Positions 169 through 5,341 of a stretch of DNA of 36,463 nt are shown here, piece by piece. Source of the DNA: Bacteroidota bacterium (lineage in GTDB: Bacteria; Bacteroidota; Bacteroidia; SXHM01). The DNA lies in contig CANKAM010000009.1 of assembly GCA_947479755.1 (NCBI GenBank), forward strand, positions 1-36,463. The letters run 5' to 3'. The number at the start of each line of letters is the position of its first letter. The first letter of the stretch is position 1. Position numbers and translations under genes: made by a program. A model generated the notes under the pieces. The model was not told the origin of the DNA and searched no databases. It saw only the letters and a program-made list of their open reading frames with translations.

Positions 169-777
169 TTGAGAGCATACAAGAGAGAAGATATACCTCA
201 GATACTTTTTAAGAATTCATTTCTAGAATTATTTTCAAATCCTACAGAAAAAAGAGCAGCCTTTTGGAATGTATCTCGCAATAAAAAAGAAAAATCTGAT
301 AAAAAAGAAAAAAACACACTATACAGCAGTGACTTTAGAGAAGTTAGCACAACAACGATGGAAGGTCATAAATTTGAAATTTTTGAATTGGTGTTACCAC
401 AAAAAAGTGAAATATCAAGACCTAGAACTGGTCATATAAAAGTGAAATCAAGATATATTGAGATAGATATTAGAATTGAATTTAACGGATATTCATCAAC
501 AACACTAGAAAACTTCACTCGTTTTTATTTAGGAGAAGATAATTATACTAATATAGAACAGCACGATTTATCTATCAAACTAAGTTTTCAATTAAATAAA
601 ATAGCAATGTTATTTAATAATAGTTTAGAGTTTGAGAAATGGATCGATAGCTTCATTCACAAAATAGACACTAACTACTCCATTGATTCCTATCTAGAAA
701 GAATAAACTGGGAAAACATTAACGCAATAATGATATCTACAATTAATTTCAATAAATCAAATACCCCGGTCAGCTGA
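169..777 (+). CDS. AT-rich orphan protein of unknown function
   Basis: This is a 202-residue open frame whose first possible start is TTG at 169. The frame is open back to a TGA at 148-150, and there is no ATG before residue 64. The product is rich in Lys, Ile, Asn and Ser, has no signal peptide or membrane segment, and matches no family I recognise. Near residues 42-55 it has a Lys/Glu-rich charged stretch. By eye the DNA is much more AT-rich than the genes to the right. It lies directly after the transposase end, so its N-terminus may have been cut by the insertion. Its last residues (TPVS) lie at the edge of the repeat element that follows. It is probably an acquired or remnant accessory gene. 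Reality of the reading frame is likely; the start is uncertain. Confidence 0.5.
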   Translation: MRAYKREDIPQILFKNSFLELFSNPTEKRAAFWNVSRNKKEKSDKKEKNTLYSSDFREVSTTTMEGHKFEIFELVLPQKSEISRPRTGHIKVKSRYIEIDIRIEFNGYSSTTLENFTRFYLGEDNYTNIEQHDLSIKLSFQLNKIAMLFNNSLEFEKWIDSFIHKIDTNYSIDSYLERINWENINAIMISTINFNKSNTPVS

Positions 778-1010
778 ATGTTCAACGCGTTTGCGCTAAG
801 CGGCATTTTTGGATTAAATAATTTGTTTTTTAAAGGTATCCAAGAGGGCTTTGCCGTTGTAATGCCGCTTAGAACATAGCCGAATTTGTAATTCGGCAAG
901 AAGAAGAGCTGAATGGCAAATTCCGCTCAGCAGAGTACTGCGTGTACTATATAAACCCCCGCTGTGCCCGTTGTGTGTGCTTTGTGGTAAAAAATCATTG
1001 CGTGTACTAC
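778..1010. repeat. Intergenic repeat element with nested inverted repeats
   Basis: No credible gene is seen here. CTAAGCGGCAT at 796-806 is matched by its reverse complement ATGCCGCTTAG at 862-872. This is followed at once by AACATA and a perfect 8-bp hairpin at 879-897 (GCCGAATT, loop TGT), then AAGAAGAAGAG. The AACATA-hairpin-AAGAAGAG layout recurs at 2879-2916 with a different stem. An 18-bp direct repeat beginning TGCGTGTACTA occurs at 939-956 and again at 999-1016. The minus-strand reading frame over this stretch has no supporting features. I do not know the element family. Confidence 0.55.
879..897. repeat. Hairpin copy 1 of the AACATA-stem-AAGAAGAG element
   Basis: GCCGAATT and AATTCGGC form a perfect 8-bp stem with a 3-nt loop. 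It is preceded by AACATA and followed by AAGAAGAAGAG. The same flanks bracket a different stem at 2884-2903. Confidence 0.7.
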
Positions 1011-1016
1011 CTAAAC
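939..1016. repeat. Direct repeat pair, TGCGTGTACTA type
   Basis: TGCGTGTACTATATAAAC at 939-956 and TGCGTGTACTACCTAAAC at 999-1016 agree at 16 of 18 positions and start exactly 60 bp apart. The second copy runs into the last codons of the minus-strand regulator gene (stop at 1011-1013). There are only two copies, so this is not an array. Confidence 0.6.
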
Positions 1017-1919
1017 ATCCAACACCAGTTTATACCCTATACCACGAATGTTTACAATCTTTATACTGGCATCGGCTTCCAGTTTCTTCCGCAGTTTTGA
1101 AATAAAAACATCCAGGGTGCGGCCCACATAATCACCATCGTCACCCCATACCTTATTCAGAATAACCTCGCGCTCAATGGTTGTGTTTGCAGCATTATAT
1201 AGCAACAGCAGCAAATCTGCTTCTTTGCTGCTCAGTTCAGTTTTCTGTTGCCCAAACAGAAGTTCTGTGGTCCGTTTATCAAAATAGTATTCGCCTATCG
1301 GTATCAAATTAGGATTGACTTCTGTTTCGGGTTTAGGCGCTCTCTTTCTTCTTAAAAATAACACAGCTGCCAGCAGTGCAATTAGCAACGTGATAAGTAT
1401 ATATTTTGCCTGAGCTGCCACAGCAAATAAGCCGGATGCAGTGGTTGAATTAGTGGGTTGCACTGTTGCATCATTTTCCTTTTTATCCATCAGGGTAAAT
1501 AAAAGGTTGTAACAAGATTTGGGTTGCGCTCTTGTTTGGCAAGGAACAATGCTCTCTTTCTCTAAATCGTTTATTTCATAGCTATACACTATCTCACCGC
1601 TGCCGCATTGCTCCACTTCCACGATATAGGCATTTGCCAGTTTGGTTTCCTTCATAACCCGCTCTACGGTGGCCACCAGTTCTTCGGGGTTAAATTCAAA
1701 TTCAGATTCCAATTGAATGCGGTACCGGTCCTTTTCCTTTACAATAGGTAATACCCGTGAGCTGCTGTCGTTAAAATTAAGCAATACCTGATGCCCTATC
1801 ATGCGCAACGCCACTTCTATATGTTGTTCGTTTTGTGTTTCCTGAGCTAAACTTGCCCAAGCAAACACTACTACCCCTGCAAAACTTAGCGCTGCAATTT
1901 TAAATTGACGTGAACCCAT
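1011..1919 (-). CDS. Membrane-tethered one-component regulator with C-terminal winged-helix DNA-binding domain
   Basis: This 302-residue protein starts with a hydrophobic signal or anchor segment (about residues 8-25). An extracytoplasmic region of about 145 residues with three Cys (105, 127, 136) follows, then a second membrane helix (about 173-189, followed by LRRKR) and a cytoplasmic OmpR/PhoB-type winged helix (about 206-300, ending in RGIGYKLVL). It has no receiver or kinase domain. The topology predicts that a signal outside the inner membrane directly controls a DNA-binding domain, as in ToxR/CadC but with the DNA-binding domain at the C-terminus. It is transcribed away from the TonB-C protein gene at 2055. 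The shared gap contains phased TTTACAT repeats, a plausible operator. A TAATTTTG box ends 4 nt before its ATG. The domain assignment is firm; the target and signal are inferred or unknown. Confidence 0.85.
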   Translation of the reverse strand: MGSRQFKIAALSFAGVVVFAWASLAQETQNEQHIEVALRMIGHQVLLNFNDSSSRVLPIVKEKDRYRIQLESEFEFNPEELVATVERVMKETKLANAYIVEVEQCGSGEIVYSYEINDLEKESIVPCQTRAQPKSCYNLLFTLMDKKENDATVQPTNSTTASGLFAVAAQAKYILITLLIALLAAVLFLRRKRAPKPETEVNPNLIPIGEYYFDKRTTELLFGQQKTELSSKEADLLLLLYNAANTTIEREVILNKVWGDDGDYVGRTLDVFISKLRKKLEADASIKIVNIRGIGYKLVLDV

Positions 1920-1923
1920 GCAG

Positions 1924-1931
1924 CAAAATTA
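1924..1931 (-). promoter_or_regulatory. Predicted -7 box (TAATTTTG) of the regulator gene
   Basis: On the minus strand TAATTTTG matches the Bacteroidota consensus TAnnTTTG. Only CTGC separates it from the ATG at 1919, so the mRNA should have almost no leader. Confidence 0.55.
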
Positions 1932-1957
1932 TTCGATTCTAATACCCGTTATACTAT

Positions 1958-1996
1958 TTTACATTTAATTTACATCAATTTACATTCGTTTTACCT
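1958..1996 (+). promoter_or_regulatory. Phased direct-repeat operator, four TTTACAT-like units
   Basis: TTTACAT occurs at 1958-1964, 1969-1975 and 1979-1985, and TTTACCT at 1990-1996. The starts are spaced 11, 10 and 11 bp, about one helical turn. OmpR/PhoB-family winged helices typically bind 7-bp direct repeats with 4-bp AT-rich spacers on one face of DNA. The array lies between a gene for just such a regulator and its divergent neighbour. It ends 19 bp before that neighbour's -7 box, where an activator could replace a weak -33 element. Binding is inferred from pattern and position. Confidence 0.6.
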
Positions 1997-2015
1997 TAAA
2001 AGCTCTTCGATGCTA

Positions 2016-2023
2016 TAGTTTTG
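2016..2023 (+). promoter_or_regulatory. Predicted -7 box (TAGTTTTG) of the TonB-C protein gene
   Basis: TAGTTTTG matches TAnnTTTG and leaves a leader of about 25-30 nt before the ATG at 2055. No clear TTTG -33 element is visible at the expected distance. Instead the last TTTACCT repeat of the operator sits there, which fits activator-dependent transcription. Confidence 0.55.
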
Positions 2024-2054
2024 TTGGAAATTAAATAATCAAAAATAAAAAACT

Positions 2055-2852
2055 ATGAAAAAGAGCACTTTATTCCTATTCAGCCTGATCACCACCACTG
2101 CATTTGCTTATTTGAATTGGGGCAATTCAGCACCTGTTAAACAAGAGAAATCAAGCTGCGCACCTGTTTGTTTCGATACGCATTATTTCAAAAAATTGAT
2201 TCCGAAGCCGAAAAAGGAACTGTTTTACGATTTCGGTCCTCGCTTTATTATGACTATTACCAAGGATGAGCTTAATAAGGTTTTATCATTTCATGATATT
2301 ATTTCGGAAAAAGAGATGGGGTCAGTGTCTTATTCTTCGGTTAGCATCACTCTGCTTGACGACCACTACAATACCATAATCAAAGAAACCGGAAGAGGTG
2401 CGGTGTTTACTCCGGCACAACTTGCGCTACTCCAATCACTCGACTACTCTTCTGATTTGGTAATAAGAGCCGACTACCAAATAAAGAGCTGGGTAACCAA
2501 TGAATTTCAATCCGATTATACCACTCCTCATTTTACCGTTGTGCCTGAAAAGGAAGCGGTTTACATCGATGGGAAAGAGAGACTACTTTCTTATGTAACC
2601 AACAACACTAAAGAATTTCTGTCCATTGTTGATCAGGATAAAGTGCAGTCGGGCAAAGTACGGTTTACCATTACCCAAGACGGAAAAATCTCAGGCGTTT
2701 CCCTCGAATCATCATCGGGGTATCCAACCTACGATTTAAAAATAATTGAACTGGTTACCAATATGCCGGGCATTTGGGTGCCCGCAACAAATTCAAAAGG
2801 TGAGAAAGTGGAGCAACGGTTTGTATTATCATTTGGCAATATGGGTTGTTAA
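2055..2852 (+). CDS. Secreted protein with C-terminal TonB-like domain
   Basis: This 265-residue protein begins MKKSTLFLFSLITTTAFAY, a signal peptide. The middle region (about 40-190) is unrecognised. The last 65 or so residues (KVRFTITQDGKISGV, SSSGYPTYD, then MPGIWVPATNSKGEKVEQRF) follow the pattern of the TonB C-terminal domain. Unlike true TonB it has no N-terminal cytoplasmic or transmembrane anchor and no long Pro-rich linker, so energy transduction is unlikely. Such stand-alone domains in Bacteroidota are usually annotated as energy transducer TonB but their function is generally unproven. It is divergent from the membrane regulator at 1011-1919 and is its most likely target. Cys residues at 35, 39 and 265 could form disulfides. 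A copy of the hairpin element follows its stop. Confidence 0.75.
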   Translation: MKKSTLFLFSLITTTAFAYLNWGNSAPVKQEKSSCAPVCFDTHYFKKLIPKPKKELFYDFGPRFIMTITKDELNKVLSFHDIISEKEMGSVSYSSVSITLLDDHYNTIIKETGRGAVFTPAQLALLQSLDYSSDLVIRADYQIKSWVTNEFQSDYTTPHFTVVPEKEAVYIDGKERLLSYVTNNTKEFLSIVDQDKVQSGKVRFTITQDGKISGVSLESSSGYPTYDLKIIELVTNMPGIWVPATNSKGEKVEQRFVLSFGNMGC

Positions 2853-2883
2853 GCATATCGCTTAGAATTGCGCTTGCAACATA

Positions 2884-2903
2884 GCCCCGCCAAAGAGCGG
2901 GGC
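2884..2903. repeat. Hairpin copy 2 of the AACATA-stem-AAGAAGAG element
   Basis: GCCCCGC and GCGGGGC pair over a 6-nt loop (CAAAGA). AACATA precedes it and AAAGAAGAAGAG follows, as in the copy at 879-897, while the inner stem bases differ but remain fully paired. It lies 31 bp after the TonB-C protein stop and may also act as a terminator there, although there is no clean T-run after it. Confidence 0.65.
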
Positions 2904-2939
2904 AAAGAAGAAGAGTAGAATTGCAACGCCAAAGTACAG

Positions 2940-4516: not shown

Positions 4517-4624
4517 CTGGTTGCTGTTTTTTTGAAAAGGATGCCAATTTTAACGCACAATTACCCCATTCGTTCTGATTTTCGATGAACGGCTGAAATC
4601 TTAGTGCAGGATGTGGATTATGGC

Positions 4625-5272
4625 TTAAATCTTATCTCCGAAGGCAAGATCTCCAGCATCGCCCAGACCCGGAACAATGTAGGACTGTGCGGTGAGTTCC
4701 TCATCTACTGCGCCAATCCATATTGTTATATTGGAGGGCATGTGCATCTTCACGTAATTCACGGCTTCGGCACTGGCAATAAGCGCCACAATGTGTGTGT
4801 GCCTTGGAATTCCGCGGTGTATCATGGCTTTGTATGAAAGAACTAACGAAGTTCCGGTTGCCAGCATGGGGTCACAGAGAATAAGCGTTTTATCCTGCAA
4901 CGAAGGACAGGCAAGATATTCCACATGCACATCAAAGGTTCCGTCTTTATGGTGTCTGCGGTAGGCAGAAATAAAACTGTTCTCGGCACCGTCAAAGTAG
5001 TTGAGCATGCCGTTGTGCATTGGCAAACCTGCACGAAGTATGGTTCCCAAAACAGGTTGTTCAACCAGATTAGGAACAGATGCCACGCCCAAAGGTGTGG
5101 TTATGTCTTTGTTTTTCCACTCCAAGGTCTTGCTTATTTCGTAAGCGAAAATTTCACCTAAGCGTTCTAAGTTTCTGCGAAAGCGCAGACGGTCGGTATG
5201 AATTTCAACATTGCGTAATTCGCCAATGAACTGGTCAACTAATGAGTTGCGGTTGCCTAATATATTTATCAT
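4625..5272 (-). CDS. upp: Uracil phosphoribosyltransferase
   Basis: This 215-residue protein converts uracil and PRPP to UMP (pyrimidine salvage, cytoplasm). The PRPP-binding loop LILCDPMLATGTS is at about 130-142, and the uracil-site signature GLGDAGDLAFG is at the C-terminus. TILRAGLPM is the PRPP/phosphate region. I chose ATG at 5272 (MINILGNRNS) over a longer frame beginning at 5332, because the extra 20 residues are not family-like. Length then fits the family (about 208-217 residues). It is a single gene between the FemAB-like gene (70 bp away) and the small membrane protein; no strong promoter box was found upstream. Confidence 0.93.
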   Translation of the reverse strand: MINILGNRNSLVDQFIGELRNVEIHTDRLRFRRNLERLGEIFAYEISKTLEWKNKDITTPLGVASVPNLVEQPVLGTILRAGLPMHNGMLNYFDGAENSFISAYRRHHKDGTFDVHVEYLACPSLQDKTLILCDPMLATGTSLVLSYKAMIHRGIPRHTHIVALIASAEAVNYVKMHMPSNITIWIGAVDEELTAQSYIVPGLGDAGDLAFGDKI

Positions 5273-5341
5273 AAGTTTTGTTTTTCTGAGATGGTGAAAA
5301 TAGATATTTATCGCTTTCCGCTGCAATGACAAGAATCATGT

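Follow-up and report, generated by a model that had tools for sequence, protein, structure and literature searches.

Probable REPIN-like copies with covarying stems in a Bacteroidota contig: a dispersed two-hairpin element

Results

Two hairpins with shared flanks and different stems

We analysed a stretch of 36,463 nucleotides (the window: positions 1 to 36,463, forward strand, of contig CANKAM010000009.1, assembly GCA_947479755.1, Bacteroidota bacterium), with which contig C9 begins, in a genome of 3.9 Mb and 112 contigs. It holds two short hairpins that are probably copies of a non-autonomous Bacteroidota element of the repetitive extragenic palindrome (REP) and REPIN (REP doublet) type, belonging in a two-hairpin form to the class of REP-associated tyrosine transposases (RAYTs) known as subclass 2.6 or group 5. 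Genomes, contigs and loci are designated below by our handles G, C and L, and R1 is the covariance model of the element.

The original prediction, made from the letters of the window, proposed two hairpins with common flanks around different, perfectly paired stems, and these were indeed present. In copy 1, AACATA (873-878) precedes the stem GCCGAATT (879-886)/AATTCGGC (890-897) and then AAGAAGAAGAG (898-908); in copy 2, AACATA (2878-2883) precedes GCCCCGC (2884-2890)/GCGGGGC (2897-2903) and then AAAGAAGAAGAG (2904-2915), with perfect pairing in both. For the flank pair ACATAG...AAGAAGA, 0.03 occurrences are expected in the window and two are present; none of 100 shuffles contained two. The pattern ACATAG-N8-38-AAGAAGAG has three matches in the entire genome and encloses a stem only in the two window copies; when 100 genomes were searched, 52 matched, with stems, by eye, only within the genus. 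Compared with dinucleotide shuffles, folding energies were low on the plus strand (z -4.0 for copy 1, -3.2 for copy 2) and on the minus strand (z -5.6 and -3.9).

An outer inverted repeat had also been predicted for copy 1 and was found, with 796-807 complementary to 861-872 at 12 of 12 positions. Integron attC sites end in GTTRRRY; such ends are, by eye, absent from the 796-872 repeat and this candidate was rejected. The parts of the two copies are as follows; counts out of 50 copies refer to 54 rows aligned with R1, from which four opposite-strand rows were left out.

764-931, plus strand: copy 1, a REPIN-like unit bounded by its CCCC end and an inverted, incomplete hairpin 1 (R1 match 795-908, 65.9 bits; opposite-strand match 868-931, E 0.07)
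764-777, plus strand: left end of copy 1, CCCCGGTCAGCTGA; relatives have a similar end type, CCCCGCTGAGC
778-783, plus strand: ATGTTC arm, able to pair with GAACAT at 872-877; 25 of 50 copies have a comparable arm no more than 40 nt upstream
796-807, plus strand: left arm of hairpin 1, CTAAGCGGCATT
808-857 (approximate edges), plus strand: element B, inside the loop of hairpin 1 (match 806-862 to its model R2, which includes this copy)
861-872, plus strand: right arm of hairpin 1, AATGCCGCTTAG
872-878, plus strand: linker GAACATA; the family consensus is GGAACAYA
879-897, plus strand: hairpin 2, GCCGAATT-TGT-AATTCGGC
898-905, plus strand: spacer AAGAAGAA
906-931, minus strand: closing inverted, decayed hairpin 1 (GAGCTGAATGGCAAATTCCGCTCAGC), better preserved in the copies of G003:C9
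2853-2915, plus strand: copy 2, with a degenerate hairpin 1 (2853-2877), linker CAACATA (2877-2883), hairpin 2 and tail (R1 40.2 bits; copy 2 is in the model)
2884-2903, plus strand: hairpin 2 of copy 2, GCCCCGC-CAAAGA-GCGGGGC

The window therefore holds one interrupted copy (copy 1) and one degenerate, decayed copy (copy 2). At the position of element B, many uninterrupted copies in relatives have TGT or TGC. Copy 2 has orthologues in G001 and G006 after the same open reading frame (ORF), each with one more copy just downstream; some copies are therefore old and inherited.

The hairpins belong to a dispersed two-hairpin family

R1 was built from ten copies gathered by DNA and pattern searches of relatives. 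In the seven genomes of the genus it gave 86 matches at E<=1, of which 59 remained at E<=0.01, with all seven genomes positive; the 59 include the ten training copies, which match by construction, some orthologues and a few opposite-strand rows. The window's genome has ten matches at E<=0.01, two of them being the hairpins described above, and 33 other members of the class have none at this threshold (best E 0.0101). An exact search with hairpin 1 and the linker across 84,980 species genomes found 14 stretches, in metagenome-assembled genomes (MAGs) labelled Bacteroidales, Bacteroidetes, Bacteroidia and, once, Chitinophaga pinensis. Three of these stretches appear to belong to the genus genomes G002, G004 and G005, and the others lie in four further Bacteroidota MAGs (G100, G101, G102 and G103) with 7, 130, 13 and 11 R1 matches, respectively. 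The exact pattern had no match in a viral contig collection.

A full copy consists of a CCCC end, sometimes an ATGTTC arm, hairpin 1 (often GAGCGGCATTTGYAATGCCGCTC, with variants), the linker GGAACAYA and hairpin 2, a stem of ~8 bp with many sequences (GCCGAATT.., GGAAAT.., GACAATT.., GCCCCGC.. and others). The element is thus larger than the single small hairpin first proposed: it has two hairpins, one on each side of a linker, and commonly occurs as an inverted pair. As to the flanks described as conserved, the AACATA linker is nearly constant, its letters AACA reaching 92-94% per column in 53 aligned rows (35-65% for the basal left-arm letters of hairpin 2), but the AAGAAGAAGAG-type tail is present in just 8 of 50 copies and is not a general feature. 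By eye and without a count, many copies sit after the stop of a gene or between genes.

Hairpins that follow gene stops could also be intrinsic terminators of transcription that resemble one another in sequence. On its minus strand, hairpin 2 of copy 1 is called as a terminator-like site, and a gene stop precedes many copies, again by eye; however, the region has two terminator-like sites against a shuffle mean of 2.5, 7 of 50 copies have TTTT after hairpin 2, and termination needs neither a near-constant linker nor a second hairpin, which makes terminators a very improbable account of the family.

The fold is maintained by paired changes

Running R1 on 48 chosen sources gave 54 rows, 53 of them distinct, for an analysis of covariation. 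All 19 pairs vary: 15 by standard-pair changes on both sides and four only by non-pairing cells, with 129 cells changed on both sides. Paired cells amount to 88.6% against 74.5% in shuffles, a value that none of 500 shuffles reached; four of five measures lay above all 500 shuffles, and the number of pair types was matched by 5 of 500. When the structure was slid along the alignment, pairing fell to 28-43%.

Shuffle tests are inflated by relatedness among rows, and the structure itself guided the alignment; hairpin 2 was therefore checked separately without an alignment. Hairpin 2 is absent from the query of the exact search, and a perfect stem of 6 bp or more, with several stem sequences, nevertheless followed 12 of the 14 exact matches (null mean 0.29, maximum 3), eight of the 14 coming from one MAG and not being independent. 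The two misses are L207, which lacks hairpin 2, and L211, in which one base of this same stem is mismatched. A stem was likewise found at 28 of 55 anchors (shuffle mean 1.6, maximum 6), a count biased by the choice of loci by the model itself.

Altogether, covariation across many copies supports the original proposal of selection on fold rather than on sequence: the fold of this dispersed element is real and under selection. The check suggested at the time, a covariance-model search with a test of compensatory changes, brought up further copies whose stems pair, and was extended beyond the genome itself to relatives and, by exact matching, to the species genomes.

Selection on fold is also what would be seen if the copies were structured RNAs or 3'-untranslated-region elements that act in transcripts (in stability, attenuation or processing) and spread by other means or by duplication. 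Copy 2 starts directly after the stop of a TonB_2 ORF and keeps this position in G001 and G006, the copies fold well on both strands, and effects of REPs on mRNA are reported in passages of PMC6006769 and PMC3733652. Yet a fold in DNA equally predicts the pairing changes, no match to Rfam reached the gathering score (the sole match at E<=1 was far under the cut-off), and copies lie in inverted pairs and adjoin RAYT genes, so that we regard an RNA element as unlikely.

Copies form inverted pairs with recurring ends

In G101, 84 of the 124 matches listed (of 130) lie within 300 bp of another. Among close neighbours in these listed matches, 35 of 45 are inverted, in the +- order (p 1.7e-13 against a plain 1/4). 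The ends of 24 G101 units are mostly (C)C|GTTGAGC and GCTCAAC|GG, with exceptions at L289, L290, L291, L295, L299 and L300; the sequence outside the units mostly differs, a flank being shared by L274/L294, L290/L292 and L298/L299. Moreover, one inverted pair of 232 bp (272-503 of an 801-bp query) is 86% identical in G004:C47 and G001:C125, with the remainder of the query unmatched and the alignment stopping near the CCCC and GGG ends. Dispersal, inverted pairs, recurring ends and the occurrence of one pair at two unrelated places support the view that copies spread as mobile units. In the window, copy 1 has the inverted doublet only in decayed form.

For a query from G000:C58, the right flank was found in the six other genomes of the genus, at loci without an R1 match, and the left flank was unmatched, which shows variable occupancy rather than a clean empty site.

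RAYT genes of subclass 2.6 type adjoin some copies

Genes for Y1 transposases (PF01797) occur in all seven genomes of the genus and in four further MAGs. R1 was positive at five of 47 Y1 loci: L263 (on both sides, inverted), L264, L119, L254 and L262. In tblastn, all five were nearer to the L103/L112/L113 kind than to the DH.H/YI.NQ kind. Within element-carrying genomes, R1 matched at 5/9 subclass-2.6-like Y1 loci versus 0/18 other Y1 loci (p 0.0016), and the copies at L263, L264, L119 and L262 combine hairpin 1 with the GGAACA linker. The association is seen best at L208 (G102, the fen_979 MAG; identical in position to L263): within 800 bp there are a copy (~4525-4582), RAYT matches (4699-5258) and a second copy, in inverted orientation (~5268-5321). 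At L264, a copy stands on one side of a truncated RAYT, and on the other an inverted hairpin 1 alone abuts the broken end and runs directly into the RAYT frame; at L119 in G005, a copy abuts a decayed RAYT fragment (L148 368-616). A RAYT flanked by its own REPs is present in G102 (L208/L263) and in part at L264 of G102 and L119 of G005.

The RAYTs tested fit, in the main, the motifs of subclass 2.6/group 5. L264 has NHIH, YIHNNP and a HuH-Y distance of 84 and lacks the WQ motif; L254 has NHLH, YIHNNP and 85; the element-free L103/L266 have NHLH, YLHNNP and 85. For L208, which like L119 is missing from the output of the motif script, NHIH and YIHENP were read by eye.

The same associations bear on whether the copies are ends of insertion sequences (IS) of the IS200/IS605 type, or miniature inverted-repeat transposable elements, moved by a subclass 1.1/1.2 transposase and not by a RAYT. 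The genus has such Y1 genes, some with small flanking palindromes of their own; R1 matched none of the 18 Y1 loci outside the 2.6-like kind in element-carrying genomes, no search being made for IS ending in these hairpins, and we consider this origin improbable. A link to the commoner Y1 genes of the genus (DH.H/YI.NQ..HH) was dropped, as no examined locus matches R1. Other Y1 genes of the genus (YI.NQ..HH; L087, L093, L098, L104, L109) are flanked by their own short palindromes, for example CCACGCCCTGAAGGGCGTGG, unlike a row of a published table, taken as subclass 1.2, that itself lists no REP.

Several observations weigh against the assignment of the window copies to a RAYT of this class. 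By a strict count the association falls to 3/9 versus 0/18 (p 0.029), and adding four later loci, none positive, gives 3/11 versus 0/20 (p 0.037), so that the RAYT link is weakened. At L254 the RAYT has on either side, in inverted orientation, a sister element whose linker is AGAGT, and not the family itself; the copy at L262 is ~1.2 kb from its RAYT; and the RAYT matches at L208 fall in two overlapping frames and may be dead. The window's genome has one subclass-2.6-like RAYT (C18) without a flanking element, as do G001 and G003; G002, G004 and G006 (68-91% complete) have the element and no such RAYT at E<=1e-20; and G101, with its 130 matches, has a single Y1 gene, of another kind and without an adjoining element. 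The comparisons made yielded no clean empty site. GT[AG]G or GGAG is near the foot of hairpin 1 in 1 of 50 copies, with no GTAG foot. The window's own copies may have been moved by a RAYT, possibly one since lost or one acting in trans.

Of 247 genomes searched at the protein level, 88 have a relative of the C18 RAYT at E<=1e-20. In a flank test of 34 loci, 30 of them usable, the left flank matched the inverted right flank beyond all 300 cross-locus pairs at eight; the other 22 had no excess, including the C18 RAYT of the window's genome (L302, where 28 of 300 null pairs reach its value), L301, L303 and L313, and direct-orientation flank repeats were seen as well at L316, L318, L321 and L322. 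By eye, several of the eight positive flanks consist of a hairpin, a short linker and a hairpin, and L329 (G130:C97) has GGAACAT after very different stems. These flanks are suggestive, and no more, of a general two-hairpin plan in this class. The C18-type RAYT (L103 flanks) has, by eye, other hairpin pairs with a GTYTATT linker.

Nested palindromes and neighbouring genes

Element B (window 808-857; loci L347-L375) is ~50 nt long and consists of a hairpin with a ATAATTTGTTTTTTAAAGG-type core, then AAGAGNGCTTCGC..AG and the end TTGYAA. Its model R2, built from eight copies, matched 60 times at E<=0.01; the matches fall in 12 of 60 genomes, and these include all seven of the genus. By eye, ~10 of 29 contexts, orthologues included, place the element in the loop of a TTTGYAA-type hairpin, with TTGYAA or a close variant after it. 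An ORF starts within 80 nt on the opposite strand in 12 of 29 cases, and on the other side in 4 of 29. Element B may be mobile in its own right, as a small separate element, or may be a leader sequence. In G035 (L083, L084), tandem arrays of ~90 bp are built on the element-B core GTATATAATTTGTTTTTTAAAGG.

Further palindromes of this kind were seen. The sister two-hairpin element, with linker TAAGAGCAT/AGAGT (GGTCAGGATTTGCAATCCTGACC - linker - GGGATTTATAATCCC), occurs at L068 (G000:C29), L077 (1100-1200) and L254. Some variants of hairpin 1 have a further palindrome in the loop (TCCGCCTCAGGCGGA or CTCGCCTGAGGCGAG; L160, L168, L175, L080, L173), as if a third palindrome had entered.

Three ORFs adjoin the window copies:

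169-777, plus strand: ORF of 202 aa without a Pfam match, its 3' end within the left end of copy 1
1011-1919, minus strand: ORF of 302 aa, Trans_reg_C (winged helix), convergent toward copy 1
2055-2852, plus strand: ORF of 265 aa, TonB_2, stopping just before copy 2

The stop codon of the first ORF (TGA, 775-777) falls inside the left end of copy 1, and insertion may therefore have reshaped its 3' end. Adjoining copy 1, the segment 933-1015 contains TGCGTGTACTAYMTAAAC twice and a stretch near GTGTGCTTTGTGGTAAAAAATC with short matches in other genomes of the class.

Discussion

The original prediction left two interpretations open, a structured RNA or a hairpin mobilised by a single-strand transposase, and is partly supported. 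The mobile branch agrees with the dispersal of the copies, their inverted pairs with recurring ends, the one unit at two unrelated places and the flanked Y1 genes elsewhere; the RNA branch found no support in the sequence comparisons made, in which nothing in Rfam matched at the gathering score.

Subclass 2.6 (group 5) of TnpA_REP is described by Quentin et al., 2018 (PMC6006769), in the passages concerned, as mostly from Bacteroidetes, with NH[LIV]H, YIH[QN]NP and a HuH-Y distance of about 82 aa, its genes being flanked by "atypical secondary structures" without GT[AG]G that have copies elsewhere in the genome. The phylum, the RAYT motifs, the long HuH-Y spacing and the non-GT[AG]G flanks with dispersed copies are alike here; two hairpins, a near-constant linker, covarying stems and an inverted-pair unit set the present element apart, a distinction drawn from the text passages; the two descriptions may overlap. 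Inverted REP doublets, or REPINs, are presented as the proposed mobile unit in the relevant part of Bertels and Rainey, 2011 (PMC3116915). As judged from that part, the two have in common recurring ends, a link to a RAYT and an apparent mobile unit in the form of an inverted doublet, but each half here has two hairpins with an internal linker and variable stems. GTAG- and CGTC-tagged REPs, some of them inside other palindromes, figure in passages of Di Nocera et al., 2013 (PMC3733652); with these our element shares short palindromes, dimers and some nesting in other palindromes, and differs in its tags, a GT[AG]G/GGAG foot and CGTC inside the copy each occurring in 1 of 50 copies. A passage of PMC8266576 gives GTAG as required by the E. 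coli TnpA_REP, and PMC12306157 reports REP counts in three Bacteroidota species without using the term RAYT. We found no description of a two-hairpin unit with this linker in the literature covered, supplements and subscription papers being outside its scope.

The following mechanism would account for these features. Each REP half would be two hairpins joined by GGAACAYA, and the full unit an inverted pair of halves, which would fold on single-stranded DNA, such as the lagging-strand template. A HuH/Y1 transposase (the RAYT, TnpA_REP of subclass 2.6/group 5) would bind the hairpins and linker, cleave, and join the unit elsewhere, between genes. The stems would probably be read by shape and the linker by sequence, so that stems drift in paired changes and the linker stays nearly fixed.

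More tentatively, and with considerable doubt, the recognition sequence throughout this RAYT class might be the internal single-stranded linker between two hairpins, not an outside foot, with lineage-specific linkers (GGAACAY; GATTATT/GTTTATT; AGAGYA, all read by eye) and freely drifting stems. A second hairpin element would insert in TTTGYAA loops, and the nested hairpins would record single-strand targeting.

In the passages of PMC6006769 concerned, the account of the REPs of subclass 2.6 goes no further than atypical structures that were identified manually. The consensus hairpin-GGAACAYA-hairpin, as an inverted pair, provides a searchable model and a substrate for the biochemistry of this class, in which the linker is a candidate guide sequence for mutation. 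If the mobile-element reading is true, paired stem changes can come from selection on a DNA fold in a mobile element, which matters wherever covariation is taken as proof of a functional RNA.

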